IMG/VR virus record: IMGVR_UViG_3300020439_002334
Location: 1 to 21,766 of that record
Length of the DNA stretch: 21,766 nt
Reading direction: 5' to 3' (one strand)
DNA from: a virus
The position numbers and the translations under genes were made by a program. The notes under the pieces are model-generated. The model did not search any database and had not been told where the DNA came from. It saw only the letters and a list, made by a program, of their open reading frames with translations. Of the stretch, positions 1 to 14,720 are shown one piece after another. Position 1 is the stretch's first letter; the number at the start of each line of letters is the position of its first letter.

Positions 1-247
1 TAGCACCAGAAATGATGTTGTTACCATAGAGAAGTGAACCAGCAACGGGTTCACGGATGCCATCGATGTCCACAGGAGGAGCAGCGACGAAGGCGACGAT
101 GAAGCAAACGGTTGCTGCCAACAGAGTTGGGATCATCAGCACACCGAACCAACCAACATAAAGACGATTGTTAGTTGAAGTTACCCACTCGCAGAAATTT
201 TCCCAAGTGGATGCGCCTTGTTGACGCGAAAGAACAGAATTAGCCAT
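1..247 (-). CDS. psbA: Photosystem II D1 protein, N-terminal part (cut by window edge)
   Basis: This is the first 82 codons of the photosystem II reaction-centre protein D1, read from an ATG at 247; the rest lies beyond position 1. The translation contains the near-invariant D1 stretches [29 protein letters not shown] and [12 protein letters not shown], with the first membrane helix at about residues 30-52. Cyanophages carry psbA to replace the rapidly photodamaged host D1 and keep photosynthesis running during infection (known). The gene has its own promoter and a structured leader of about 175 nt. The identity is certain. Whether the copy is intact cannot be judged, because about three quarters of it is outside the window. 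Confidence 0.98.
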
Positions 248-298
248 TGTTTTTGAAAAAGGGTAGTTAAGAGTGCGGGGAACACTAGTAGTATTATT

Positions 299-352
299 CC
301 TGCGACACCCTCCGCCGCAGGTATGAGAGGCGTGTTTTACTTGGATAGCCTC
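299..352 (-). ncRNA. Structured 5' leader of psbA (two hairpins; PhotoRC-like candidate)
   Basis: The untranslated leader between the psbA promoter and its ATG contains two consecutive hairpins on the minus strand: GAGGC/GCCTC (348-352 with 327-331) and CCTGCG/CGCAGG (316-321 with 299-304), the second with an 11-nt loop. Conserved RNA motifs called PhotoRC are known in leaders of photosystem genes of marine cyanobacteria and cyanophages. Location and strand fit, but I cannot confirm a match to that motif from memory. No ORF occupies this stretch. Confidence 0.45.
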
Positions 353-429
353 GGTAAGGTGATTAGACCCGTTTCTCCAAGTTTACAAGAGATTAAAAAC
401 GTTACGTTTCTTAACTCGTTGATTTATTT

Positions 430-1984: not shown

Positions 1985-2689
1985 TTACCTAACCGCTTTT
2001 TGATAGGGTCTTCCCTTCTCATCAAACCCATCAATATCAATATGAACGGGATCTCCGCTAAAATTATCAGCAGGAGCAACTAGCAGATAGGGTCCAGGAA
2101 CTCTATCTGCTTTCCAATCATAAGTTCTAAATTGAGAGATATGAAAGTGAATAGTAATAACTTTCTTACCAGGGTTTCTACAGGTATATCCAAGTTCTCT
2201 CATATGATATGTAATTTTATTATCACAACCAGGAACACCCATCGTGTAGTTCATACCTTCAGATGTCAAAACTGGTGTCTTAAAAATCCATACATCCTGT
2301 GATGCTGCATTATCATATGGTTCAATTTCCCAATTCTTACCATCACCCGAAGTAATCTCCCAACGACTTAATGCATAAAATTGCATAGTCATATCAATAC
2401 TATTAAAATATCTAAGAGTATCGTCAAAAATAATATCAGCATTAGAAACAATACAAATCTCATTTCTCATATGAGTATTGCAGTATTCAAAAAGACTTTG
2501 ATATGTAGGGCGTTTTTTTACAACAACTCGTTCTATCTTGGGAGAATCAAAATTGAGTTCTGCATCCTCTTCCATGAAAATATAGATCTTGTCAATATAA
2601 TCATTGGCAAGATTCTGGTGAAGACAGTATAAAAGCTCCCCATTCCTAATATGATTTAAGGAATTAAAATATTCAATAATTAAATTCAT
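1985..2689 (-). CDS. Putative GT-A-like glycosyltransferase (234 aa)
   Basis: Last gene of the sugar cassette. The 234-residue protein has an N-terminal beta-alpha region (IIEYFNSLNHIRNGELLYCL) and a candidate metal/nucleotide-sugar site SNADIIFDD at residues 82-90, where NAD resembles a degenerate DXD motif. Further on, YALSRWEI and QDVWIFKTP look like acceptor-side elements of GT-A enzymes. I cannot assign a CAZy family. ATG 2689 overlaps the upstream epimerase stop (ATGA), so the two are coupled. A glycosyltransferase role is inferred from fold-like features and neighbours. Confidence 0.6.
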   Translation of the reverse strand: MNLIIEYFNSLNHIRNGELLYCLHQNLANDYIDKIYIFMEEDAELNFDSPKIERVVVKKRPTYQSLFEYCNTHMRNEICIVSNADIIFDDTLRYFNSIDMTMQFYALSRWEITSGDGKNWEIEPYDNAASQDVWIFKTPVLTSEGMNYTMGVPGCDNKITYHMRELGYTCRNPGKKVITIHFHISQFRTYDWKADRVPGPYLLVAPADNFSGDPVHIDIDGFDEKGRPYQKAVR

Positions 2690-3579
2690 TGTTCAGAAAT
2701 CCACTTCATAAGATTTACTTTTGGATCCCAACCAAAAGTTTGTTTTAACTTATCATTATTTGCAAGAGTCACTCTGGACTCTCCAATCCTTGGAGGAATA
2801 TTTGTTTGATTGTCAGAAATCACATTCGCAATCTCATTAATTGAATAATTTATACCATTACCAACATTATACAACTGACCATAATTTTCATCATCAACAT
2901 CTACCGTTGCCGCAAGCACGTTAGCAGATACAACATCAGATACATGAGTAAAGTCTCTACGTTGCTCCCCATCACCAACAATAGTCAGAGATTCTCCAGC
3001 AGCACGTTGACGCAAGAAAATACCAATCACAGGAGCATATTGACCTCTTAAAGGTTGCCTTTCTCCGTAAACATTAAAATACCTAAAGAATACTGTTTTC
3101 AATCCAAAGAGATCATTATACATCTTACAAAGTTTTTCACCAGAAACTTTAGATACAGAATATGGATTTAAACAATCATCTCTTTGAGTCTCTTCGTTAG
3201 GTGGTTTATTGAATCCATATCCAGAAGAGGTTGAAGAATAAATGACTTTCTTAACTCCTGCTTCACGGGCACATTGAAGTACCGTAACTGTGCCAACGCA
3301 GTTTACACTTACTGCCTCAATTGGATTTAAAATTGCAGGTTGAATTCTTGCCTCTGCCGCAGTATGAAAAACATAATCTACTCCATCATATAGAGGTTTT
3401 GTCTTTTCATAATCACGAATATCATACTTATAATTTTGTGCTTTATCATTCCAATAAAATTCTTCATTAGATTCAGCACTTTCACTATCAATTACAACAA
3501 CCTCATGACCCATCTCAAGCAGTTTATCTACTAAATGAGATCCAATAAAACCTGCTCCACCTGTTACTAATGATTTCAT
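2686..3579 (-). CDS. NAD-dependent sugar-nucleotide 4-epimerase/dehydratase (extended SDR)
   Basis: This 297-residue extended short-chain dehydrogenase has the NAD-binding GGAGFIGS at residues 7-14, a Ser/Thr segment YSSTSSGYG near 114-122, and the catalytic pair Tyr140-x3-Lys144 (YSVSK). These are hallmarks of the GalE/UDP-GlcNAc 4-epimerase/UDP-glucuronate decarboxylase group. HTAAEARIQP at 72-81 fits the UDP-GlcNAc 4-epimerase (WbpP) branch, but substrate choice cannot be settled. It would supply a C4-epimerised nucleotide sugar to neighbouring transferases. It lies 2 nt after the FkbM gene upstream and is ATGA-coupled to the next gene. Confidence 0.9.
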   Translation of the reverse strand: MKSLVTGGAGFIGSHLVDKLLEMGHEVVVIDSESAESNEEFYWNDKAQNYKYDIRDYEKTKPLYDGVDYVFHTAAEARIQPAILNPIEAVSVNCVGTVTVLQCAREAGVKKVIYSSTSSGYGFNKPPNEETQRDDCLNPYSVSKVSGEKLCKMYNDLFGLKTVFFRYFNVYGERQPLRGQYAPVIGIFLRQRAAGESLTIVGDGEQRRDFTHVSDVVSANVLAATVDVDDENYGQLYNVGNGINYSINEIANVISDNQTNIPPRIGESRVTLANNDKLKQTFGWDPKVNLMKWISEQ

Positions 3580-3581
3580 TT

Positions 3582-4223
3582 TTACTCTTTTGAAAATACA
3601 ACATCAACTTGAAAAGTACTACCATAAGGAAAAATACCCTCAATTTTATCCATACACTTATGCTCTTCTATAATCTCATATTTTGAGAATCCAATTTGTT
3701 TCATGTAATCAATAACTTCATCAAACAAAGGACTTCCTTCATTGTATTGAAGTATAGCGACTTCTAGTATAACATAAGATGCTTTTTTTACTGTCTCAAG
3801 TCCACCCCTAATAATATCTAGTTCAGATCCTTGAGTGTCGATTTTAATTATATCAAAAGTCTTATTATCAACTTTACTTATAACTTCATCTAAAGTAAAC
3901 GTATTTTTTTTAACTTGAACACTATTTTTATAATGTATAGTTCTTTCTTTCAGATAAGAAGTTCCTGTGCATGTAGGATTTTTTGGATTTAAATGTAAGA
4001 TTACTTCCTTATTAGTATCACTCAATAAAACAATACAGTGAGAAAAGGGCAAATTATCTAAAACCTCTTCACAATTTTCATTACCTTCCAACATTAAAGA
4101 ATCTATATTTTTCCACACTCGTCTACAAAACATAGAAAAATTTCCATAATGTGCCCCAATATCTAATAGTGTATTAGGAGTGTAACTTTTAGACAACTCA
4201 ATCAAATAATTTTCAATAGTCAT
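3582..4223 (-). CDS. FkbM-family SAM-dependent methyltransferase
   Basis: This 213-residue protein has the SAM-binding LLDIGAHYGNFS at residues 19-30 and the FkbM signature IIKIDTQGSELDIIRGG at 125-141. FkbM-type enzymes O-methylate sugars or polyketides and are frequent in O-antigen and capsule loci. It overlaps the upstream GT4-like gene by 4 nt. A second FkbM gene lies at 8304-8951 with little similarity outside the motifs, so they probably methylate different positions or sugars (inference). Confidence 0.9.
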   Translation of the reverse strand: MTIENYLIELSKSYTPNTLLDIGAHYGNFSMFCRRVWKNIDSLMLEGNENCEEVLDNLPFSHCIVLLSDTNKEVILHLNPKNPTCTGTSYLKERTIHYKNSVQVKKNTFTLDEVISKVDNKTFDIIKIDTQGSELDIIRGGLETVKKASYVILEVAILQYNEGSPLFDEVIDYMKQIGFSKYEIIEEHKCMDKIEGIFPYGSTFQVDVVFSKE

Positions 4224-5170
4224 AAATAAACTTCCTCAAACTTTTGAATTACTTTCTCTGGAGTATAATCTTGATAACAATTCCATTCTAAAGAATTTAT
4301 TTCTTTTTTATCAAGATTCCTGAGAATATGAAGAATCTCAGAATAGTTTTCGTAATAAATTCCTTTTTCATCCAGAGTATCTATGTGATTTCTTTCTGGA
4401 GACTTTTCATAAGTAATCACAGGTTTATTTCTAATAGAAAACTCGGCACAAGAAAGTCCAAATGATTCTCCCTGATTTCTAGCATGAAGCATTACATCAC
4501 AAGTGTTAATGAATTTTGTTTTTGTTTCTAGACAAGAACTTCCAGGAAGATATATCACTCTTTCATGTTCAATAAATGGTTGTGTAAATTGAAAAACAAA
4601 CCAAACATCTGCTCTTTCAGAAAGAACTTGAGATATAGCATTCTTTACAAATCCCAAATCAAAAGTTTCCCACCCACCATTTCTTCCAAAAACCAAATCA
4701 CTTTTTGGAATCGATAGTTCTTCTCTCATATCAGTTTCAACATCTGGAAGATGAACTATATGAGGAACACAAGGAACTGTGAAATCAGTTAATTTAGAAA
4801 GCCATTCAGAACACATTGCATAAACGTCTCCATGTATCCACTCCCTTTTCCATGCAGAAGAAGTGGCACTAACTAAATTTTTACAATTAGTAGAGATAAC
4901 TCCATCATTACTACCCCCTTTCATCATAAAAAAATAATCGCATTTATTTTTTTCCAAAATATAATCTATTTGACTATTATTTGAATAGTCAAATACCAAA
5001 AATTCTTTTTTAAATTTTTTCAATACATCTTGATTATTTGCTGGATGATTTATATTGTACATCACAATTGGTTCTATTTCCAAATAATGTCTAGTCCAAT
5101 ATGCCCAGTCATAAATGGCTGTTGTAGTTCCTCTCAAAGACAAACTATTATCATGAAATGCTATTTTCAT
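4220..5170 (-). CDS. GT4-like (GT-B fold) glycosyltransferase
   Basis: Read from ATG 5170 (MKIAFHDNSLSLRG...), the protein has 316 residues; an in-frame TTG at 5206 would extend it into the upstream gene and is unlikely. An N-terminal Rossmann strand followed by SLRGTTTA resembles the acceptor-side glycine region. The C-terminal ARNQGESFGLSCAEF (about 230-244) matches the E-x7-E donor motif of retaining GT4 glycosyltransferases. It should transfer a sugar from a nucleotide donor at the cytoplasmic membrane face. Donor unknown. It overlaps the upstream gene by 20 nt. Confidence 0.82.
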   Translation of the reverse strand: MKIAFHDNSLSLRGTTTAIYDWAYWTRHYLEIEPIVMYNINHPANNQDVLKKFKKEFLVFDYSNNSQIDYILEKNKCDYFFMMKGGSNDGVISTNCKNLVSATSSAWKREWIHGDVYAMCSEWLSKLTDFTVPCVPHIVHLPDVETDMREELSIPKSDLVFGRNGGWETFDLGFVKNAISQVLSERADVWFVFQFTQPFIEHERVIYLPGSSCLETKTKFINTCDVMLHARNQGESFGLSCAEFSIRNKPVITYEKSPERNHIDTLDEKGIYYENYSEILHILRNLDKKEINSLEWNCYQDYTPEKVIQKFEEVYL

Positions 5171-6065
5171 CTTTTTGTAGTAGTATAGTAGATTTATCCA
5201 TCTCAATTATTTCATCAATAGTATCGTCATCTAATTCCGTATAGAGAATGATTTTATCTTTACAAAGTTGTAAAGGTTTTCCGCCAAGAATAACCTCATT
5301 ACCAGTCAAATCAGAAGCACCCGTATTATCTAAAATATAAATAGGGGTTTCAGAACACAATATAGAAAGAACTGCAGTTCCAGTTGTTTGAGATATATTT
5401 GAAATACATCTTTTTTTATCTTTTATCAGAGATACAAAATCAACTAACTTTTCAACATATGTACATTTATTTTCTAAACAAAAACTTTCAGTACCATATC
5501 CAACAACAAATATATTTTCTGTTAACTGGGATTTTATTTTTTTTATCAAATTTTTATAAAAATTACTATCATGACTGAAATTTTTATAATTATTATGATC
5601 TCTGGATCTTAGACTTAATACAATATACTTATCAGGCTTCTCTATCGTCGATTTAGATAAGTCAAATCCATTAAATAATTCCTCGTAATCTTCATCATGA
5701 CGAACATATTTTCCGTTTTTATCGATAAAGGTACTTGTAGAATTAAAAGAAAATTGATTAGCACTACCAGGCATTCTCGTAATGGTCCAATCATCTACAG
5801 TATCGGAATTAGTAAGATTTAAATTTTTAAATTCATCATATGAAATAACATTATGAAAAAGTTTAGAATAGAAAAATACTCTATCTTCAGAAGTTACCAT
5901 CGTATAATCACGTAGTTGATGATAGGAATGAGTTTTTATTAATTTTATAAAATCAAATCTACTACCAACCACTTCCCATCCCAACTCAAAATAATTATTT
6001 AAAGTTGAAGAGTCATTTCCAGATACTCCTTTTTTTAGAGATTTTCCAAGAATAATATAATGCAT
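5151..6065 (-). CDS. Hypothetical protein of the sugar cassette, possible GT-B-type glycosyltransferase (304 aa)
   Basis: This 304-residue protein is not firmly recognised. The C-terminal half has alternating beta strands and helices (YIVLSLRSR near 148, IFVVGYGTES near 194, then NISQTTGTAVLSILC near 223-237). The last resembles the S/T-x-GTA-x-L nucleotide-sugar pocket of heptosyltransferase-like GT-B enzymes. The N-terminal half is rich in Asp, Ser and aromatic residues. No membrane segment. Position among glycosyltransferases supports a transfer role, but this is inference. Start ATG 6065, with an 8-bp gap from the upstream gene. Confidence 0.5.
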   Translation of the reverse strand: MHYIILGKSLKKGVSGNDSSTLNNYFELGWEVVGSRFDFIKLIKTHSYHQLRDYTMVTSEDRVFFYSKLFHNVISYDEFKNLNLTNSDTVDDWTITRMPGSANQFSFNSTSTFIDKNGKYVRHDEDYEELFNGFDLSKSTIEKPDKYIVLSLRSRDHNNYKNFSHDSNFYKNLIKKIKSQLTENIFVVGYGTESFCLENKCTYVEKLVDFVSLIKDKKRCISNISQTTGTAVLSILCSETPIYILDNTGASDLTGNEVILGGKPLQLCKDKIILYTELDDDTIDEIIEMDKSTILLQKDENSIS

Positions 6066-6073
6066 AATAATCC

Positions 6074-6382
6074 TCAGTAAGTTTTATGACTTCTTTGGAT
6101 ATATTTTCCACTATCTAAGTCTTCACCATTTGTTGCAGCAAAAACAATTTCAACTAATTTTTCATCCACTTCATCAATAAGTTGATTTCTTTGAACGTTA
6201 AGATCACATGCTTTTTTCAAAGACTCCCAAAGTTTTTGTGCCCCATCTTCAGTATCAAAGTACTTTGCTTTATATTCTTCAAAAGACATTCTACGAATTT
6301 CATAGAGTAACTCTTGATTATTCCACATTTTTAAATCAACAGTAGTGAGTTTGTCGATTAAAGATCCAAGTGTGTCAGCCAT
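6074..6382 (-). CDS. Small conserved helical protein of glycan loci (102 aa)
   Basis: This 102-residue all-helical protein starts MADTLGSLIDKLTTVDLKMWNN and has the dense central patterns RRMSFEEYKAKYF and KKACDLNVQRNQLIDEVDEKL (around 30-75), ending in SHKTY. Proteins of this shape occur in bacterial sugar-biosynthesis loci as far as I recall, without an assigned function. There are no catalytic motifs, cysteine pairs or membrane segments. It lies between the acyltransferase gene and a putative glycosyltransferase, separated by 8-13 bp, and is co-transcribed. It could be a partner or scaffold. Confidence 0.7.
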   Translation of the reverse strand: MADTLGSLIDKLTTVDLKMWNNQELLYEIRRMSFEEYKAKYFDTEDGAQKLWESLKKACDLNVQRNQLIDEVDEKLVEIVFAATNGEDLDSGKYIQRSHKTY

Positions 6383-6395
6383 TTTAATTAATTCC

Positions 6396-7019
6396 TCAAT
6401 TTTTCCAATGAATTAAATCACTTTCTAACTCATCCAATTCATTTTCCTCTCTATATAGAACTTCCTGTTTAAGAGGATTTTTCAATCTTCTTCCCATTTT
6501 TTCTACAGGAATTCCCGAATATACAGACCATTCATCCAAATCTTCTTTAACTAAAGATAGAGCACCTACAGAAGCACCTTCAGACAAAGTTACTTTTGGA
6601 AGTATCACAGTGGATGATCCAATTATAACATGTTTTTCCAATATAACTTTACCAACTTTGACTTTTTTATACTTATCTGGAACAGTAGGATTTGTTAAAC
6701 TTCTACCCAGATAATCATCGGAAGCAGAGTATATTTTAACTCCACTAGATAATCCACTAAAATCTTTCATCACAACACCACCTTTACATGACAATAAACA
6801 ATTACTACCGATGTGAACGTTAGATCCTATTGTTAAACTACCTCCAACACTATTAATAATAGTAAATGCATCGATCCTAACATTAGAACCTATCGAAACA
6901 TTTTCAATACCATGTATAAGACAAGTTTCATCTATGAGAACATTACTACCAATTTTTTTAAATCCAATATCCGACATATCCCTTTCGGTCATAAATCGTG
7001 ATTCAAACATTTGATTCAT
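6396..7019 (-). CDS. Hexapeptide-repeat (left-handed beta-helix) acyltransferase
   Basis: This 207-residue protein contains repeated hexapeptides of the [LIV]-G-x4 kind (SIGSNVRIDAF, TIGSNVHIGSNC, VGKVILEKHVIIGSSTVILPKVTL) over about residues 20-185, and the terminal pattern YSGIPVEKMGRR typical of this superfamily. Such enzymes transfer acetyl or other acyl groups from acyl-CoA to sugar hydroxyl or amino groups. It follows the perosamine-synthase-like gene, so N-acylation of a 4-amino-4,6-dideoxy sugar, or O-acetylation of the glycan, is the likely job (inference). It does not closely resemble O157 WbdR as I recall it. Start ATG 7019; Met4 and Met10 are alternatives. Confidence 0.88.
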   Translation of the reverse strand: MNQMFESRFMTERDMSDIGFKKIGSNVLIDETCLIHGIENVSIGSNVRIDAFTIINSVGGSLTIGSNVHIGSNCLLSCKGGVVMKDFSGLSSGVKIYSASDDYLGRSLTNPTVPDKYKKVKVGKVILEKHVIIGSSTVILPKVTLSEGASVGALSLVKEDLDEWSVYSGIPVEKMGRRLKNPLKQEVLYREENELDELESDLIHWKN

Positions 7020-7158
7020 CCTCTAATAAGATTTTTGCTCGATAAACTAAAATTTTTTTGATTAAATTTTTCACATCTTGATCAATTTGTGGATTTTTTC
7101 TAACATACCATAATATTATATCACATAAAATTTTTAAATCTAGTTTAGAAAAATTCAC
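7003..7158 (-). CDS. Possible tiny ORF (51 aa, GTG start) between aminotransferase and acyltransferase
   Basis: The 150-bp gap between two sugar genes is filled by a 51-codon ORF from GTG 7158 to TGA 7003, overlapping the next gene by 17 nt. It reads NFSKLDLKILCDIILWYVRKN..., a plausible amphipathic helical protein rich in Lys, Ile and Asp. An in-frame stop just upstream fixes GTG as the start, and no Shine-Dalgarno sequence precedes it. It may simply be AT-rich sequence that stays open by chance. Function unknown. Confidence 0.4.
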   Translation of the reverse strand: MNFSKLDLKILCDIILWYVRKNPQIDQDVKNLIKKILVYRAKILLEDESNV

Positions 7159-7169
7159 TACATTCTAAT

Positions 7170-8264
7170 TTAGAAATCACAAAAATTTAAAATAGTCTTA
7201 CTTATATATTCTAACTCAAATTCCTTTAAATCTGGATAACTTGGAATATTAAATCCTCGTCTACTTATATCTTCTGAAATTTTATGAGATTGATACTTAT
7301 GAGAGTACATAGGCATTGTATGTACAGGATAGAACAAAGGTCTTGTATCTATACCATTCTCAGTCAAATACTTTCTAAACTTATCTCTCTGATCTTGATT
7401 GCAATCAAGAAGAATACTATTCATCCAATAGCTATGGATAGTATCTGGTTGTTCTTTATGTGTTTTAATGTGTGTTCCTTCAAAAGCAGAGTGATAATAA
7501 TCCGCAATTTTTCTCTTCTTTTCAATCAACTCATCAGATCTTTCCAATTGAGCCTGACCAATAGCACATGCAATATTAGTCATTCGATAGTTATATCCAA
7601 CAACATCATGCCAGTACTGACGATGCTCTGCAAGTCCTTGACCTTTTAAGTGAATTGCTCTTCTGTAGAGAGTTTCATTATTAGTTACAACCATACCACC
7701 TTCACCTGCGGTTATAGTCTTGTTACCAAAAAAACTGTACGTAGAAATATCTCCAAAAGACCCCACATGTCTTCCTTTGTATCTTGTGCCAAATCCTTCT
7801 GCACAATCCTCAACGAGGAAGACATCATTCTCCTTTGCAATCTTACAAATAGAGTCCATATCACATGACTGACCATATAGATGGACAATCATAATTGCTT
7901 TTGTTTTGGGAGTTATCTTTTTTACAATATCTTCTGGGTCTACTTGCCAAGTTTCTTCTAAGGAATCAACAAATATTGGTGTAGCACCACAATAAACAAT
8001 TGCATTTACAGAAGCAATATACGTAAATGTAGGTACGATTACTTCATCTCCAGGTCCAATACCCAAAGCAAGAAGTGCTAAATGTAAAGCAACTGTACCA
8101 TTACAAACAGTAGTTGCATAATCTACACTAGTTTTTTGTGCAAAAGATTTTTCAAAAAGATTTACATACTTACCCTTAGAAGAAATCCAAGAACTATCTA
8201 AACAATCATTTACATATTGTTTTTCAAGATTAGTAATTGATGGTTGATAAACAGGTATTTTCAT
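7170..8264 (-). CDS. per: GDP-perosamine synthase-like PLP aminotransferase (DegT family)
   Basis: This 364-residue DegT/DnrJ/EryC1-family aminotransferase has the PLP Schiff-base lysine at Lys182 in SFFGNKTITAGEGG and the pyridoxal-nitrogen Asp at 153 in VEDCAE. From memory it follows GDP-perosamine synthases (RfbE of E. coli O157 and V. cholerae O1) almost end to end: PVYQPS near the start, DS-WISSKG, YATTV-NGTVALHLALLALGI, KGQGLA-HRQYWHDV, and RP-FYPVHTMPMYS. RfbE converts GDP-4-keto-6-deoxymannose, the product of the Gmd in this cassette, plus glutamate to GDP-perosamine. Other DegT sugar aminotransferases are possible. Length fits. No clear Shine-Dalgarno. Confidence 0.85.
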   Translation of the reverse strand: MKIPVYQPSITNLEKQYVNDCLDSSWISSKGKYVNLFEKSFAQKTSVDYATTVCNGTVALHLALLALGIGPGDEVIVPTFTYIASVNAIVYCGATPIFVDSLEETWQVDPEDIVKKITPKTKAIMIVHLYGQSCDMDSICKIAKENDVFLVEDCAEGFGTRYKGRHVGSFGDISTYSFFGNKTITAGEGGMVVTNNETLYRRAIHLKGQGLAEHRQYWHDVVGYNYRMTNIACAIGQAQLERSDELIEKKRKIADYYHSAFEGTHIKTHKEQPDTIHSYWMNSILLDCNQDQRDKFRKYLTENGIDTRPLFYPVHTMPMYSHKYQSHKISEDISRRGFNIPSYPDLKEFELEYISKTILNFCDF

Positions 8265-8303
8265 ATTTATTTTTTTGCACCGGTTTAAAAATAATTAAAC
8301 TTA

Positions 8304-8951
8304 TTATTCATTTTTATATGCGGTATTTTCAAATAAAACGTTTCCCATATCTTTCCAAGGAAGTTCTTCAAATACAACATCAAATCCTATTTGTTTCATA
8401 TTGTCTTTAAACTTATCATACAAAATAGTTCCTTCATACATTTCCATCAAAGAAACTTCACAATACAAATATTTTGTGTTGGAAATTATTTTAGGAGATG
8501 ATTTAATTATATCATATTCAGACCCCTGAACATCCAACCACATAAAGTCCAATTTAGAAATTTTATTTTCATCACACCAACTATCCAAATTGACGACTTC
8601 AACTTCTTGTTCTTCAGAAAATTTTACATTTTCATGAAAGGTTAAATGTTCTTTAGGTGTTCGTAAGGAAGAAGAAGCAGAAGTTTGTCCAGAAACATTG
8701 CTGACGTAAATAGATTTTTTTTCGCTTCTTTCTCCCAAAGCTTTTTTTTCTATAAAAACATTTTTATATTGTGATGTATTTGTTATAGATCTTGTATAAA
8801 GTTCTTCTACAGGTTCAAACCCATAAATTTTTCCCTTTCTAAAATAATGTCCAAAAAACCTTGTATCTCCCCCATCATATGTTCCAGCTTCAACTATAGT
8901 TGCATCTTTGGGAATATTTTCCAACACCCAATCATAAATTTCACTTTGCAT
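8304..8951 (-). CDS. FkbM-family SAM-dependent methyltransferase (second copy)
   Basis: This 215-residue protein has the SAM site IVEAGTYDGGDT at 19-30, the acidic GFEPVEE at 44-50, and the FkbM signature DFMWLDVQGSEYDIIK at 135-150. It probably O-methylates a sugar hydroxyl of the glycan made by this locus. The sequence differs strongly from the FkbM protein at 3582-4223, arguing against recent duplication. It lies 2 nt after the GT10-like gene. Confidence 0.9.
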   Translation of the reverse strand: MQSEIYDWVLENIPKDATIVEAGTYDGGDTRFFGHYFRKGKIYGFEPVEELYTRSITNTSQYKNVFIEKKALGERSEKKSIYVSNVSGQTSASSSLRTPKEHLTFHENVKFSEEQEVEVVNLDSWCDENKISKLDFMWLDVQGSEYDIIKSSPKIISNTKYLYCEVSLMEMYEGTILYDKFKDNMKQIGFDVVFEELPWKDMGNVLFENTAYKNE

Positions 8952-8953
8952 TT

Positions 8954-9808
8954 TTAATCCAGAATTTTTTTAAAGTTAGCACAAATCTCATCCAAAGTCA
9001 ATTTTTCTTTAAAAAGAGGTTTGTTTTTCATTTCTATGTATGATGAATTATTAGAATCTATTCTTTGAATTAGTTCCATCAACTCTTCATCACTCATATC
9101 AACAGCATTAATAAAACACTCAGAATTAAAATCTTCTGAAATTGTTTTATCTCCATAATAAATTGGAATATTACCTGCAATTTTACCATGTAAAAGTTTT
9201 TCTGTGTGATATCCAGGAGTTACTGAATTCTCATAACATAGAGAAAACTTATAATCAGAAATCAAATCCATCTTATAATTCTCACCATCTGGTAATGGTT
9301 GATTTGAATTTGCCTTTCCAAACACTTCAACAGTTTTGTATCTAGAAATATTTTGAATTGCTCTGATTCTAGATTCAATCTGTTTACCATAAACTATAGT
9401 ACAAAACTTATCTTTTGGTTTTAAAGTGAATTCATTTTCACCATAAAGATATGATTCTGGAATCAACCATTCTGGATTATCATAAGTCTTTACATCAAAC
9501 CAATCAATATAAAGATACCAAAGGGGAAGTCTAAAGTTCTTCCCACCATAAGAATCCTTCTCAAAAGTTAAAGAATAATCGCACTTTTTAAAATTTGGAG
9601 ATATATTTTCTCCGGTAAAGAAAATCTTTTTGCAGTTTTTATACCTTCCATTTTCTTTTCCAAAAACACTGAAAAACATTACATCAGCATCTTCTGGATG
9701 AACTACTTCAACATTTTCATATAATTCACGAATAACGTGGATGAAAAAATTATTATTTGGATCAAATGCTTTTGGATATTGCCAGAAGTCTGAGAATGTT
9801 ATTTTCAT
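8954..9808 (-). CDS. GT10-family fucosyltransferase-like protein
   Basis: This 284-residue protein matches alpha-1,3/4-fucosyltransferases of CAZy family GT10. KIFFTGENISPNF at 61-73 corresponds to the acceptor/donor loop of Helicobacter FucT, LPLWYL at 94-99 to its RMPLYY region, and CYENS...GYHTEKLLHGKIAGNIPIYYG at 191-219 to the conserved GDP-fucose-binding segment (Glu-Asn, Thr-Glu-Lys). It would transfer L-fucose from GDP-L-fucose to a glycan, and the donor can be made by Gmd and Fcl in the same operon. There is no heptad-repeat tail as in H. pylori. It is ATGA-coupled to the upstream GT25-like gene. Confidence 0.88.
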   Translation of the reverse strand: MKITFSDFWQYPKAFDPNNNFFIHVIRELYENVEVVHPEDADVMFFSVFGKENGRYKNCKKIFFTGENISPNFKKCDYSLTFEKDSYGGKNFRLPLWYLYIDWFDVKTYDNPEWLIPESYLYGENEFTLKPKDKFCTIVYGKQIESRIRAIQNISRYKTVEVFGKANSNQPLPDGENYKMDLISDYKFSLCYENSVTPGYHTEKLLHGKIAGNIPIYYGDKTISEDFNSECFINAVDMSDEELMELIQRIDSNNSSYIEMKNKPLFKEKLTLDEICANFKKILD

Positions 9809-10491
9809 GGTTGAATAAAAGACTTATCTAAGTTTAAATGAGATGACTGCTGTAACGCTGGTTCAGTCCAGGCAACTTTCATATTTTCTTTAATTATGAT
9901 TTCGTTTAGTTTAAAATCAATTGGCCAATTTACTGGATATAGATTTTTCACAATCATTTTAGCAGCATCCAAAGAAAACATCATCGCATGGGTACATCTT
10001 GTCAACTGATTAGATCCATAGTGAATCAATCTATTCTCTCTAACATATGGAGATCTAAATCCAAAACAACTACCCAACATCAAACAATCAAGTTTTGGAT
10101 CATGATTAATAAACTCAGATTGACAAATATCCAAATACTCTTCAAAGTTATTTGGAAGCATAATGTCATCTTCCAAAATAACAATTAGATCATACCCATT
10201 CTCGATTTGTTGTTCGAAACAATATTGATGTTTCAGATATAAAGAAAGTTCTGGAATAGTTACCTTTCTTCCAGCATTCTCATATAAGGTATATTGATTT
10301 TGCTGAACCCCAGGAACATTTGAATTGATAACAAGATCTTTTACACCAACAATTTGATCATAATCTTCAGTTATCTCTTCTGGAGAAAACTTTTCTACCC
10401 ACTCAACTTCTATGTTTCTAAAAGAAAAAAATTTATCAAGATATTCTTTTCTATGTGTTAATGGTGGATGATGGCAAACAAAAATTTTCAT
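9805..10491 (-). CDS. GT25-family LPS glycosyltransferase-like protein
   Basis: This 228-residue protein has the N-terminal MKIFVCHHPPLTHRKEYL typical of GT25 (family name LPS glycosyltransferase), the metal-binding ILEDDI at residues 106-111, and the downstream CTHAMMFSLDAAK and WPIDFKLNE segments that complete the GT25 pattern. Bacterial members add galactose or related sugars to lipooligosaccharide. It supports a lipopolysaccharide-type target for the cassette. Overlaps by 4 nt with neighbours on both sides. Confidence 0.88.
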   Translation of the reverse strand: MKIFVCHHPPLTHRKEYLDKFFSFRNIEVEWVEKFSPEEITEDYDQIVGVKDLVINSNVPGVQQNQYTLYENAGRKVTIPELSLYLKHQYCFEQQIENGYDLIVILEDDIMLPNNFEEYLDICQSEFINHDPKLDCLMLGSCFGFRSPYVRENRLIHYGSNQLTRCTHAMMFSLDAAKMIVKNLYPVNWPIDFKLNEIIIKENMKVAWTEPALQQSSHLNLDKSFIQP

Positions 10492-11345
10492 TGCACTCTT
10501 TTAATAATATTATTAAAAACACCTTGAAGAGAAAAATAATCTTGATAAAGTTCTTGACCCTTCTTCAACATCTCATTATATGTATCATCAGAAATATTCT
10601 TCAAAATATTGTAGGTATCCCCAATATGATCATCATCAATTATAACACAAAATTCTTCCCAGTCTAATTCATCAGACCAAGGAAGTGCATGATCGTCGGA
10701 AATATAAACGGGAACTGTACCAAGTTGGAATGATTCATAGAGCCTGAAACTAGTCGTCCCATATCCTCTAGGGCAAAGAGAAAACTTAGAAGCAGACATG
10801 ACATCAAGGAAGTTATTCAATTTCTCTTCTCCAACATTAATATCCCAATTTCCTGCTTTAACAAGACAATCGTCTTTACGACGAAACGCCTTTACCATAT
10901 CGGTTCTAACCCAATAAGTATTAGAACCAATAAAAGAAGCAAAATACTTCTGCCTTCTTTCTGGAACATTTTGAATTGAAGAGCACACTAATGGAATTGG
11001 AATTACGTTTCCTTTTTTACGATTTCCACCTGCAGAGAAGATCATAGTATCTTCCGGGAAATCTTCGAAAGGACCATCATCTTGCTGACAAACAGTAAAA
11101 TAACTGCCATCAGATTTGAGAGTATTATTTAAAAGTCCCTGAAGATCTGGATATGGTTGCCCTGCCCAAATTTTATTACAAAAAATATTTGACCAGAAAA
11201 TATCAATATATTCTCTTTCAGGTTTATCTTCTAATTTTTGATATTGAGTATAAAAATATTCCTCAAGATAATCTCCCTGATGATATGGAGGATATGTTGG
11301 GGTAAGAGACTTTGGTCTCAGATAATTTTCATTCAAATAAACCAC
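10488..11345 (-). CDS. Exostosin-like (GT47-type) glycosyltransferase
   Basis: This 285-residue protein has the C-terminal exostosin signature KFSLCPRGYGTTSFRLYESF followed by LGTVPVYISD (187-217), the nucleotide-sugar-binding half of GT47 enzymes. Bacterial relatives act in O-antigen and capsule synthesis. The start is GTG at 11345, supported by a perfect Shine-Dalgarno AAGGAGG seven bases upstream, one of the few strong ones in this window. It overlaps the preceding gene by 13 nt. Confidence 0.85.
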   Translation of the reverse strand: MVYLNENYLRPKSLTPTYPPYHQGDYLEEYFYTQYQKLEDKPEREYIDIFWSNIFCNKIWAGQPYPDLQGLLNNTLKSDGSYFTVCQQDDGPFEDFPEDTMIFSAGGNRKKGNVIPIPLVCSSIQNVPERRQKYFASFIGSNTYWVRTDMVKAFRRKDDCLVKAGNWDINVGEEKLNNFLDVMSASKFSLCPRGYGTTSFRLYESFQLGTVPVYISDDHALPWSDELDWEEFCVIIDDDHIGDTYNILKNISDDTYNEMLKKGQELYQDYFSLQGVFNNIIKRVQ

Positions 11346-12004
11346 AATCCTTCCTCCTTAAACTTATTAATTTTAGTTTCCACACCGACCATCCAATTAT
11401 TATGAACAATCATGGCGTTTTCTTTTTTACCCTGCTGATAATAAACATTACCATTTGGAAACAAATCTTCTGACAATAATGCAATATTATCATGATACTT
11501 AGAAAGACCAATACGATTCATAATCAACTGATCATCATCACTTTCGTCAGCACCACATTCTTCAATCAATTGACGGCACTCAGAAGTTTCATTAAATACC
11601 ATAAATCCAGTACAGATTGTAGATCCAGGAGCATCAGTTTGAAATAGTACTTCATCATGACCTGTAAGAAGTTCTACAGGATTTTCTTTAAAGACAATAT
11701 CAGTATCAACCCACATAAGATTAGGATGTTCTTTATGAACCTGACTGATGATTTTCCATTTATGTCTAACTACGTTCCTGAATCCACTATTACTATTAAA
11801 TGTCCAATCCTGATATTCTTTTAGGTCACTATTCATGTAAAGGAAAGCACCTTTATATCCCTCAAGAATAAAAGATTTATAAACATCTTCATCCATACAT
11901 GCAATAATAAAGTCATCCATGTTGATGCCCACGTTCTCAGCGGACCTCAACATATTCAAACAAATATCGTGACATCCAGAATTCAGAAAAGTCAGAAATT
12001 TCAT
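11333..12004 (-). CDS. GT77-like nucleotide-diphospho-sugar transferase
   Basis: This 223-residue GT-A enzyme has the motif WVDTDIVFKENP with DTD at residues 100-102 (metal and nucleotide-sugar binding). It is followed by CTGFMVFN near 130 and DDQLIMN near 157, and a late HNNWMVG motif, which is the pattern of the nucleotide-diphospho-sugar transferase family behind GT77. The donor is unknown. ATG 12004 overlaps the Fcl stop (ATGA). Confidence 0.85.
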   Translation of the reverse strand: MKFLTFLNSGCHDICLNMLRSAENVGINMDDFIIACMDEDVYKSFILEGYKGAFLYMNSDLKEYQDWTFNSNSGFRNVVRHKWKIISQVHKEHPNLMWVDTDIVFKENPVELLTGHDEVLFQTDAPGSTICTGFMVFNETSECRQLIEECGADESDDDQLIMNRIGLSKYHDNIALLSEDLFPNGNVYYQQGKKENAMIVHNNWMVGVETKINKFKEEGLWFI

Positions 12005-12951
12005 TGATCTTTATACCACTCATAAGTTGTTTTAATTCCGTCTTTGAGAGAAATTTTTGGTTTCCACCCAAGAGATTTGATCTTATCCACATTAAGAACT
12101 TTTCTTGGTGTTCCATTCGGTTTAGAAGTATCCCATGTTGTTTGACCTGGGCATCCAACTACATCAGAAACAATACCTGCAAGTTCTTTAATAGTAATAT
12201 CTTCTCCTGTTCCAACATTAATTGGTTCTGAAGAATCATAATCTTTCATACAAGTATAACATGCTTCGGCAAGGTCATCAACATGAAGAAACTCTCTCCG
12301 TGCCGAACCGTCACCCCAAAGTTTTACATCTGGCCACCAAGGACCGCCCATATCAATAGTATATCCTTCGGTCTTTGCATAATGATACTTTGCAATCATC
12401 GCAGGAAGAACATGAGATGACTCCAAATCAAAGTTATCATTAGGACCATACAGGTTAGTAGGCATCAGAGAGATTGCATTAAATCCATACTGTTTACGAT
12501 ATGCCTGACACATCTTAATTCCAGCAATCTTTGCAATCGCATAAGCATCATTCGTAGGTTCAAGAGGACCAGTCATTAGATACTCTTCCTTAATTGGTTG
12601 CTCACACATCTTCGGATAGATGCATGAAGATCCAAGGAACAAGAGTTTCTTAACACCAAACTTACGGGCAGTATGAATGATATTTGATTGAATCATCAAA
12701 TTATCATAGATGAAATGTGCAGGATATTCACTATTAGCCCCAATACCACCTACCTTCGCAGCAGCAAGATAAACGTATTCTGGTTCATTTATTCTAAAGA
12801 AAGTTTCAACATCTTCTTGACGACGCAAATCCCAACGCGAAGATGGTGATGAAAGAATATTGGTGTATCCCTTCCAATGAAGCATACGAACAATTGCTGA
12901 CCCTACCAGTCCAGTATTACCAGCAACATAGACTCGACTCTCACTGTTCAT
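12001..12951 (-). CDS. fcl: GDP-L-fucose synthase
   Basis: This 316-residue extended SDR carries out the 3,5-epimerisation and NADPH-dependent 4-reduction of GDP-4-keto-6-deoxymannose to GDP-L-fucose. It has the cofactor motif GNTGLVG (11-17), the catalytic Ser/Cys segment LGSSCIYP (106-113), and Tyr137-x3-Lys141 (YAIAK). [12 protein letters not shown] is diagnostic of this family. ATG 12951 is chosen over an in-frame TTG at 12969 because GAGGAA at 12962-12967 provides a Shine-Dalgarno ten bases upstream. It overlaps the gmd end by 11 nt. The two enzymes form the complete two-step GDP-fucose pathway. Confidence 0.97.
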
Positions 12952-13942
12952 GACTACACATTTCCTCAACTAATTCTTTAAACGAAGTTTTAGGTGTCCA
13001 ACCCAGTTCTTCTTTTGCCTTTGTAGCATCACCTAATAAAGTTTCAACTTCAGCAGGTCGAAAATATTTAGAGTCAACAGAAACAATAATTTTTTTAGTA
13101 TTCTTATCTAAGGCAACTTCATCCAGACCACTACGATGCCATTCCAAATCAAATCCAAAATGAGGTGCTGCCTCCTCAACAAACTGACGAACAGAATATT
13201 GTTTTCCCGTGGCAATTACAAAATCATCAGGTTTATCTTGCTGAAGCATTAACCACATTGCCTCAACATAATCTCTGGCATGTCCCCAGTCACGAAGTGC
13301 ATCAAGATTGCCAAGATATAAACGATCCTGTTTACCTTCAGAGATTGCTTTGAGTGCTCTTGTAATCTTACGAGTTACAAATGTCTCACCTCGTCTTGGA
13401 GATTCATGATTAAACAAAATGCCACTACAGGCATACATTCCATATGACTCACGATAGTTTTTTACAATCCAATATCCATACAGTTTTGCAACACCATATG
13501 GAGAACGTGGATAAAAAGGTGTCGTTTCTGTTTGAGGAATCTCTTGAACTTTACCATACAGTTCGCTAGTAGATGCCTGATAGATACGAACCTTATCTTC
13601 CATACCCAGAAGACGAACTGCCTCAAGGACTCTCAGAGTGCCTAAAGCGTCTGTCTGACCAGTATACTCAGGCATTTCAAATGATACCTTTACATGACTC
13701 TGAGCCCCAAGATTATAAATCTCATCTGGTTGAACCTGCTGAATAACTCTCACCAAGTTAGTAGAATCAGTCAGATCTCCATAATGAAGATGTAATTGTG
13801 GATAAATGTGATCAATTCGGTGGGTATTAATTAAAGAAGAACGGCGAATAATACCATGAACTTCATATCCCCTCTCAAGAAGAAGTTCTGCTAGGTATGA
13901 TCCATCTTGCCCAGTAATACCGCTAATTAAAGCAACTTTCAT
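12941..13942 (-). CDS. gmd: GDP-mannose 4,6-dehydratase
   Basis: This 333-residue extended SDR oxidises and dehydrates GDP-D-mannose to GDP-4-keto-6-deoxy-D-mannose. Visible are the NADP motif GITGQDG (8-14), the HRIDHIYP substrate region, the catalytic segment STSELYG (124-130), and Tyr149-x3-Lys153 in [23 protein letters not shown] and the length are typical. It opens the sugar cassette directly behind its promoter. Its product is the branch point for GDP-fucose (Fcl) and, probably, GDP-perosamine (gene at 7170-8264). GDP-mannose must come from the host, because no synthesis genes are present. Confidence 0.97.
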
Positions 13943-13962: not shown

Positions 13963-13992
13963 ATTATACTAAAAAAGGACGGTTGATGTCAA
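13963..13992 (-). promoter_or_regulatory. Sigma70-type promoter of the sugar cassette, -35 inside a terminator loop
   Basis: On the minus strand a perfect TTGACA (13987-13992) and a perfect TATAAT (13963-13968) are 18 bp apart. RNA would start near 13956, leaving a leader of about 14 nt before the gmd ATG. The -35 hexamer overlaps the loop and stem of the terminator hairpin at 13977-13998. It is the only strong promoter seen ahead of the 12-kb cassette. Confidence 0.82.
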
Positions 13993-13998
13993 CCGTCC
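13971..13998 (-). terminator. Perfect Rho-independent terminator ahead of gmd
   Basis: A 9-bp perfect stem GGACGGTTG/CAACCGTCC (13990-13998 with 13977-13985), with the 4-nt loop ACAT, is followed by six T residues on the minus strand (13971-13976). It should end RNAs from the two small genes and the pseudoknot array upstream. It lies 29 nt before the gmd ATG and could also act as an attenuator for read-through into gmd. Confidence 0.88.
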
Positions 13999-14021
13999 GA
14001 AATAGGGTTTTACATGCCGCG

Positions 14022-14157
14022 CCACTTGCTCTTTGACCTGAAGCAAGAAACAGGGCGGGAGAGAGATCCCATCCGCACCACTTGCTCTTTGTGGAAGCAA
14101 GAAACCAAAGGAGGTCAATGACTCCACCACTTACTTTTGAAAGAAGTAAGAAACTTC
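14022..14157 (-). ncRNA. Three tandem RNA units that can fold as H-type pseudoknots
   Basis: Three related units (minus strand: 14127-14157, 14078-14107, 14022-14054) repeat every 49-56 nt in a non-coding stretch of about 190 nt (13999-14189). Each reads: variable strand a, UUU, CUURCUU, strand a', A-rich linker, AGYAAG, UGG. CUUGCU/AGCAAG becomes CUUACU/AGUAAG in the most upstream unit, a compensatory change. Strands a/a' also covary: CCUG/CAGG, UGG/CCA, GAAG/CUUU (one G-U). The order a-b-a'-b' is a classical H-type pseudoknot with a U-rich loop 1 and A-rich loop 3. A plain hairpin (TGAAGG/CCTTCA, 14163-14178) precedes the array and the terminator follows. I do not recognise the family. Confidence 0.65.
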
Positions 14158-14189
14158 GGGAATGAAGGGGTTCCTTCAACCGACCAGGG

Positions 14190-14450
14190 CTAGTTTTGAG
14201 ACGATACCGAGTCTTTTCGATAAGCAGGAACACCATCAGGATCTAACCAACATGTATAATCATGATCTTCCATAGCAGTCATCAACTGCATTTCATTATC
14301 ACAAAGATACATATCACGATAACGACCCGTGTATGAATCTACTTTTTGAATGCGACAATCTGGCATACCATTGATTTCCAGAGTGCCGACTTGAATATAA
14401 CGATAAGGAAACCGTTCAAGAAGAACGGTTGGTTTTTTGGATACTTTCAT
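14190..14450 (-). CDS. Hypothetical cyanophage protein (86 aa)
   Basis: This 86-residue ORF starts at ATG 14450 and overlaps the upstream stop as TGATG; the codon before it is a TTG that could only add one residue. It is beta-rich and aromatic-rich (RFPYRYIQVGTLEINGMPDCRIQKVDSYTG, then YTCWLDPDGVPAYRKDS), with no membrane segment or catalytic motif. Function unknown. It is the last gene before the pseudoknot array. Its first codons contain an 8-bp inverted repeat (14410-14430) described under findings. Confidence 0.75.
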   Translation of the reverse strand: MKVSKKPTVLLERFPYRYIQVGTLEINGMPDCRIQKVDSYTGRYRDMYLCDNEMQLMTAMEDHDYTCWLDPDGVPAYRKDSVSSQN

Positions 14451-14668
14451 CAAGCAACTTCAACAGTTTCAAGATCTGCAAACAGATTTTCCATTAGCAT
14501 TTCATAATCATCCAGAGGTTCTCCAGAGAATACTACTCCTTCACTTTCATAATAACGACGGACCTTTTTGTAAAGTTTCGGATTCTTCACATCAAGGTAA
14601 ATATCGCCATTAGCAGCAGAACGCAGAGTGACGATATCTTTGGACTTGAATTTTTCAGTCAGTGCCAT
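14450..14668 (-). CDS. Hypothetical cyanophage protein (72 aa)
   Basis: This 72-residue acidic protein (MALTEKFKSKDIVTLRSAANGDIY...) has a mixed beta/alpha N-terminal part and an acidic helical C-terminus (DDYEMLMENLFADLETVEVA). No known motif. It has its own promoter at 14692-14720 and is coupled to the following gene by TGATG. The leader is short, without a strong Shine-Dalgarno. Confidence 0.78.
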   Translation of the reverse strand: MALTEKFKSKDIVTLRSAANGDIYLDVKNPKLYKKVRRYYESEGVVFSGEPLDDYEMLMENLFADLETVEVA

Positions 14669-14691: not shown

Positions 14692-14720
14692 ATTATAAGG
14701 TTTGAAAGTTATTTAGTCAA
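14692..14720 (-). promoter_or_regulatory. Sigma70-type promoter after tRNA-Pro
   Basis: On the minus strand TTGACT (14715-14720) and TATAAT (14692-14697) are separated by 17 bp. It would drive the two small genes, the pseudoknot array and stop at the terminator at 13971-13998. Confidence 0.8.

Follow-up and report, generated by a model that had tools for sequence, protein, structure and literature searches.

Tandem wcaG pseudoknots at a candidate transcription-unit boundary ahead of a viral glycan cassette

Weinberg et al. described the wcaG RNA in 2010 as a candidate riboswitch, occurring in marine metagenomes and cyanophages near exopolysaccharide and high-light genes (PMC2864571). Later cyanophage papers restate it as a cis-regulator of exopolysaccharide genes, and the parts of these papers available to us contain no test of wcaG (PMC9602691, PMC9964418, PMC10665884). 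In the literature that we searched, we found neither a cyanophage transcript map covering wcaG nor a description of its arrangement at transcription boundaries. The RNA family, known but of unexplained function, belongs to abundant marine viruses. Two other described RNAs invite comparison. The STAXI motif consists of tandem repeated pseudoknots near phage or mobile genes (PMC2864571), while manA RNA (RF01745) is a cyanophage cis-RNA that was described beside wcaG and lies near wcaG in S-CREM1 (PMC9964418).

Here we analysed a window of 21,766 nucleotides (positions 1 to 21,766 of the IMG/VR virus record IMGVR_UViG_3300020439_002334), in which a sequence-only reading had noticed three tandem pseudoknots and had left undecided whether they are related to wcaG. 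The Rfam covariance-model scan that it had proposed settled this point: the wcaG model RF01761 is matched over its full length (model positions 1-98 of 98) with 91.8 bits against a gathering cutoff of 42, and PhotoRC-II (RF01717) was found elsewhere in the window. By this match the three-unit array is wcaG RNA, a member of an RNA family of marine cyanobacterial viruses, and its setting is the one described for the family, a cyanophage context upstream of exopolysaccharide or high-light genes, here with gmd. The Rfam model comprises only two pseudoknot-bearing stems and covers pseudoknots 2 and 3 together with the intervening hairpin. The array in the window adds a further pseudoknot, which gives only a 27-bit echo outside the match, and a fourth, upstream module (type A), which the model misses as well. 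Moreover, unlike in the Rfam description, the RNA and the gene are separated by a terminator that contains a promoter. STAXI shares the tandem pseudoknots and the phage or mobile neighbourhood, but differs in sequence and neighbours and gave no match in the Rfam search of the window; manA RNA, although likewise a cyanophage cis-RNA, was absent in the same search. Weak matches to sR15, Plastid-psbM and FtrA fell below the cutoff and were taken as chance. While the family itself is known, the sequence comparison thus points to two new aspects, an array that exceeds the Rfam model in length and modularity, and its boundary arrangement. The features are collected in Table 1.

Table 1. Features of the array and its surroundings (positions in the window)
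Feature	Position	Strand	Basis or remark
Predicted sigma-70 promoter TTGACT-N17-TATAAT upstream of phrog_552	14692..14720	-	11/12 match
phrog_552 gene	14450..14668	-	
phrog_481 gene, directly upstream of the array	14190..14453	-	
Type-A module: hairpin AGAC/GUCU, loop UCGGUAUC, A-rich stretch, UGG	14184..14214	-	sequence; overlaps phrog_481 3' end
Linker hairpin 1: UCGG...CCGA around UGAAGG/CCUUCA	14156..14183	-	MFE and centroid fold
Pseudoknot 1: GAAG.UUU.CUUACUU.CUUU.CAA.AAGUAAG.UGG	14127..14157	-	pseudoknot finder; outside Rfam match
Linker hairpin 2 (GGAGUCAUUGACCUCC)	14110..14125	-	sequence
Rfam wcaG RNA (RF01761), full-length model match	14011..14109	-	91.8 bits, cutoff 42
Pseudoknot 2: UGG.UUU.CUUGCUU.CCA.CAAA.GAGCAAG.UGG	14078..14107	-	Rfam and finder
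Linker hairpin 3 (UGCGGAUGGG...CCCGCC), conserved after the penultimate unit	14055..14077	-	Rfam match; relatives
Pseudoknot 3: CCUG.UUU.CUUGCUU.CAGG.UCAAA.GAGCAAG.UGG	14022..14054	-	Rfam and finder; last-unit covariation in relatives
Spacer beginning CGCGGCAUG (relatives: CGUGCAUG or CGAGCCUG)	13999..14021	-	comparison of arrays
Intrinsic terminator GGACGGUUGA-CAUC... hairpin and U6 tract	13971..13998	-	hairpin 13998-13977, U-tract to 13971
Sigma-70-type promoter TTGACA-N18-TATAAT in the terminator, predicted to drive gmd	13963..13992	-	12/12 match
gmd, GDP-mannose 4,6-dehydratase, first cassette gene	12941..13942	-	

With a finder written for UGG-ended H-type pseudoknots we recovered exactly three units, on the minus strand between 14157 and 14022 and spaced 50 and 53 nt apart, in the same frame that had been read from the letters. 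All three units carry UUU as the first loop (L1) and a helix S2 formed by CUURCUU with AAGUAAG or GAGCAAG, followed by UGG; the helix S1 is in turn GAAG/CUUU, UGG/CCA and CCUG/CAGG. No further UUU-loop unit of equal score was found elsewhere in the window, and 150 Markov (dinucleotide-based) shuffles of the window, searched on both strands, furnished two such units in total and never an adjacent pair, compared with three adjacent units in the real sequence. In a calculation that ignores pseudoknots, the 246-nt region also has a better fold than all but one of 200 shuffles (z = -2.74); the closing pairs of linker hairpin 1 overlap S1 of pseudoknot 1. The claimed extent, three units and a terminator, was borne out, but the array is larger than had been stated, since the type-A module covers the last codons of phrog_481 (stop codon at 14190-14192). 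A 90-aa open reading frame over the array (13964-14236) uses another frame and overlaps phrog_481, and we treated it as spurious. In shorthand the array reads APPP, one type-A module and three pseudoknots, a form found in 12 arrays in all.

Relatives were collected with a degenerate pattern in viral contigs (L002-L121), through homologues of the upstream and downstream proteins, and from a few genome contigs; after removal of near-duplicates this consensus search, which the sequence-only reading had suggested, gave 168 non-redundant arrays, 167 of them with enough sequence for downstream counts. One helix of one unit is fixed by the search pattern. We therefore tested covariation solely on last units that fall outside this pattern, located via the sequence 3' of them, with pairing not required. 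In these 80 last units S2 is fully paired in 73 (partner-shuffled mean 29, maximum 40) and S1 in 67 (mean 38, maximum 45). S2 is freely rewritten from unit to unit, with CUUGCUU, CCAAUUU, ACGGCAU, CCUAGUU and AGUUAUU among the versions found. The type-A module recurs as a hairpin whose loop reads, for instance, ACGGAUG, with an A-rich stretch and UGG after it; it mostly lies upstream of the other modules, and its arms are paired in 129 of 167 relatives (shuffled mean 46, maximum 59). Arrays hold one to five modules, and the hairpin modules precede the pseudoknots in nearly all of them. With both pseudoknot helices covarying far beyond the partner-shuffled controls, the comparison supports the view that the array is a selected RNA structure, as had been proposed.

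The spacer showed a pattern of its own. At bases 4-11 after the final UGG of the array, the 8-mer is CGUGCAUG in 91 and CGAGCCUG in 63 of the 168 arrays and the two are almost never mixed, which amounts to two positions changing together, with no obvious partner for pairing. A host origin of the arrays was considered and set aside: the pattern scan of genome contigs, weak owing to its stringent pattern, returned 13 loci, none of them titled as a cyanobacterium, and the real arrays resemble phage contigs in MAGs. Three contigs binned as Crocinitomicaceae, Saprospiraceae and a Euryarchaeote (L125, L130 and L134) carry wcaG-type units and look like cyanophage contamination of MAGs; L125 and L134 also have the terminator/promoter.

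As had been claimed, the array lies upstream of sugar genes: gmd opens a glycan cassette of about 12 kb (about 1985-13942, minus strand). In the relatives the gene before the array belongs to several families of small proteins, mainly phrog_481, phrog_552, a 77-aa membrane protein and a coiled-coil protein, and the array starts within -25 to +10 nt of the upstream stop codon in 90 of 147 cases. Where small genes intervene after phrog_481, many arrays are found 0.4-1.1 kb further on, right before the first sugar gene. We therefore rejected the array as the 3' UTR of one given upstream gene, given that the upstream families vary and that genes inserted after phrog_481 push the array further along. 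Downstream we find nucleotide-sugar epimerase/dehydratase families in 38 of 87 cases and a cytidylyltransferase in 15 of 87; tail-fibre, hli/ferredoxin (hli in the S-SZBM1 region) and tRNA genes also occur as neighbours. A hand tally of phrog_481 loci, in which a sugar gene comes next in 27 of 33 loci with the array and in 2 of 17 without it (Fisher p 2e-6), was kept in weakened form only, because many of the "without" loci have the array 0.4-1.1 kb on, before the cassette. Judged from these gene orders, the array stays beside the first gene of a variable cassette while the upstream gene is interchangeable, and therefore marks where the variable region begins, not where any particular gene ends. 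All eight isolate genomes (8/8) contain exactly one copy.

The strong terminator that had been placed 29 nt before gmd is real, its tail ending about 28 nt before the start codon (13942). The view of the array as non-coding and terminator-ending was likewise upheld, with the additions that the RNA lies on the minus strand and that the terminator contains a perfect sigma-70 promoter, which had been overlooked; a perfect TTGACA/TATAAT promoter is expected 0.05 times per shuffled window. Downstream of the 167 arrays we counted 131 predicted terminators with an embedded promoter, 16 terminators alone, 13 tRNA genes and 7 cases with neither, so that a terminator or a following tRNA gene is near 96% of the arrays (160/167). 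The terminator scan alone gave a hit within 115 nt downstream in 150 of 167, at a median of 19 nt after the last UGG and with 94 distinct stems, and in 115 of these 150 terminators a TATAAT-like hexamer lies exactly 17 nt after the loop TTG. The tRNA genes, mostly Gly-UCC or Leu-UAG, lie 34-55 nt downstream, a few of them together with a terminator-like hairpin. The isolates show both layouts: S-SKS1, S-SM2 and SynMITS9220M01 have the array, the terminator/promoter and sugar genes (in S-SKS1 with gmd, as in the window), and S-PM2, S-RSM4 and Sf-CH11 have the array, a hairpin without a U-tract and then tRNA-Gly.

Since the embedded promoter follows the array in 131 of the 167, the mRNA of the sugar genes most likely starts downstream of the array, contrary to the cis-regulatory (5'-UTR) label in Rfam; read-through transcripts may exist besides. 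Indeed, the next start codon in the relatives usually lies 30-40 nt past the terminator, so that an mRNA begun at the embedded promoter has no room for the array. The array would then probably form the tail of the preceding RNA and not the leader of the sugar-gene RNA. A classical riboswitch or cis-regulator in the 5' UTR of the downstream gene was the original proposal (PMC2864571) and would agree with the position upstream of sugar and high-light genes and with the minority of arrays that lead directly into a coding gene; with the promoter downstream of the array, its short distance to the start codon and no antiterminator pairing, we regard it as very improbable. With a promoter usually placed between the RNA and its presumed target gene, the 2010 riboswitch proposal becomes directly testable.

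Our best explanation, which we hold tentatively and at slightly less than an even chance, is a structured transcription-unit boundary with a capped 3' end and a promoter restart, instead of a 5' UTR of the glycan mRNA. The array lies where a few small phage genes give way to the interchangeable cassette, and would be transcribed as the 3' part of a phrog_552-phrog_481 mRNA from an upstream promoter, for which the predicted one before phrog_552 is the likely start. The 3' end of this mRNA would be set by the terminator or, ahead of a tRNA, by processing of the tRNA 5' end; the compact pseudoknots may shield the mRNA from 3'-to-5' decay or from passing machinery, and transcription of the cassette would begin anew at the promoter inside the terminator. 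The module would in this way separate two transcription units and restart transcription. Compact pseudoknots of this kind, with UUU as the first loop and an A-rich third loop, resist unfolding in other systems; that the wcaG pseudoknots protect RNA from nuclease is a guess by analogy. Extended to the family, wcaG may be no 5'-UTR riboswitch but the RNA part of such a boundary: tandem pseudoknots would form the 3' end, the terminator joined to them would hold the promoter of the next unit, and each cyanophage genome would use the arrangement once, where its variable glycan, tail-fibre or light-gene region begins; this broader statement we consider possible, yet doubtful. Against the boundary model, the single copy per genome and the downstream bias toward sugar genes are not expected of a generic 3' cap, and 7 of 167 arrays are followed by a gene without terminator or tRNA. 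A generic 3' terminator device is itself weakened by the single copy in the 8/8 isolates.

The main rival of the boundary model is a regulated read-through gate, in which the array, riboswitch-like or by processive antitermination in cis, passes the polymerase through the terminator into the cassette under some condition, with the embedded promoter as a separate basal supply. Processive antitermination RNAs are known from HK022 (put) and from Bacillus polysaccharide operons (the EAR element, EAR/epsC). These provide a possible parallel, being structured RNAs ahead of polysaccharide genes (EAR) or phage terminators (put); the window array has no sequence or Rfam match to them and carries a promoter inside its terminator. 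A gate would be consistent with an array that keeps beside the first cassette gene when the upstream gene changes, with the mostly nucleotide-sugar enzymes downstream, with one copy per genome, with the tight terminator spacing and with the conserved CGUGCAUG/CGAGCCUG spacer. In the relatives, however, neither terminator arm shows excess complementarity to the array region (7.19 versus 7.16 +/- 0.06 with permuted partners), and we thus rejected an antiterminator helix between array and terminator, of the mutually exclusive type used by riboswitches. This missing pairing, the promoter inside the terminator and the arrays that lead into tRNA genes, where there is no terminator to control, speak against a simple version of the gate. 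The gate model as a whole we judge rather unlikely. For the same lack of complementarity, and with the promoter downstream of the array, the ligand-sensing attenuator that the sequence-only reading had offered first is not supported; its other options, a 3' UTR or a nuclease block, would fit the anatomy better.

Alternatively, the array could be set free as a stable RNA, about 200-250 nt long, and act in trans or as a decoy by binding a host or phage protein through its UGG-ended modules. Repeated similar modules in variable number, the defined 3' end (terminator or tRNA in 160/167) and the single copy per genome would suit such a role; it leaves the sugar-gene neighbourhood unexplained, the window showed no separate promoter for the array after the upstream gene, and we find it improbable.

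Terminator/promoter hybrids are rarer away from arrays than at them, 18 versus 82 on the same contigs. Array-free terminators with an embedded TTGACA/TATAAT-like promoter were seen on the cyanophage contigs L018, L045, L064, L087, L096, L106 and L119, and the combination is possibly a general terminate-and-restart device. The window holds three perfect TTGACA-N16-18-TATAAT promoters, at 1964, 13992 and 14929 and all on the minus strand (expected 0.05 in shuffles); one precedes an hli gene and one is the terminator-embedded promoter before gmd. Besides gmd, the cassette encodes an epimerase resembling GDP-fucose synthase, glycosyltransferases of the GT47, GT25 and GT10 (fucosyltransferase) types, an FkbM methyltransferase, an aminotransferase and a hexapeptide acyltransferase, and upstream of it lie genes for glucose-6-phosphate and 6-phosphogluconate dehydrogenases and a plastoquinol oxidase. 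Finally, the PhotoRC-II RNA (286-394, minus strand; 45.2 bits, cutoff 39) sits directly upstream of psbA (about 1-246, minus strand), which is cut off by the contig end.
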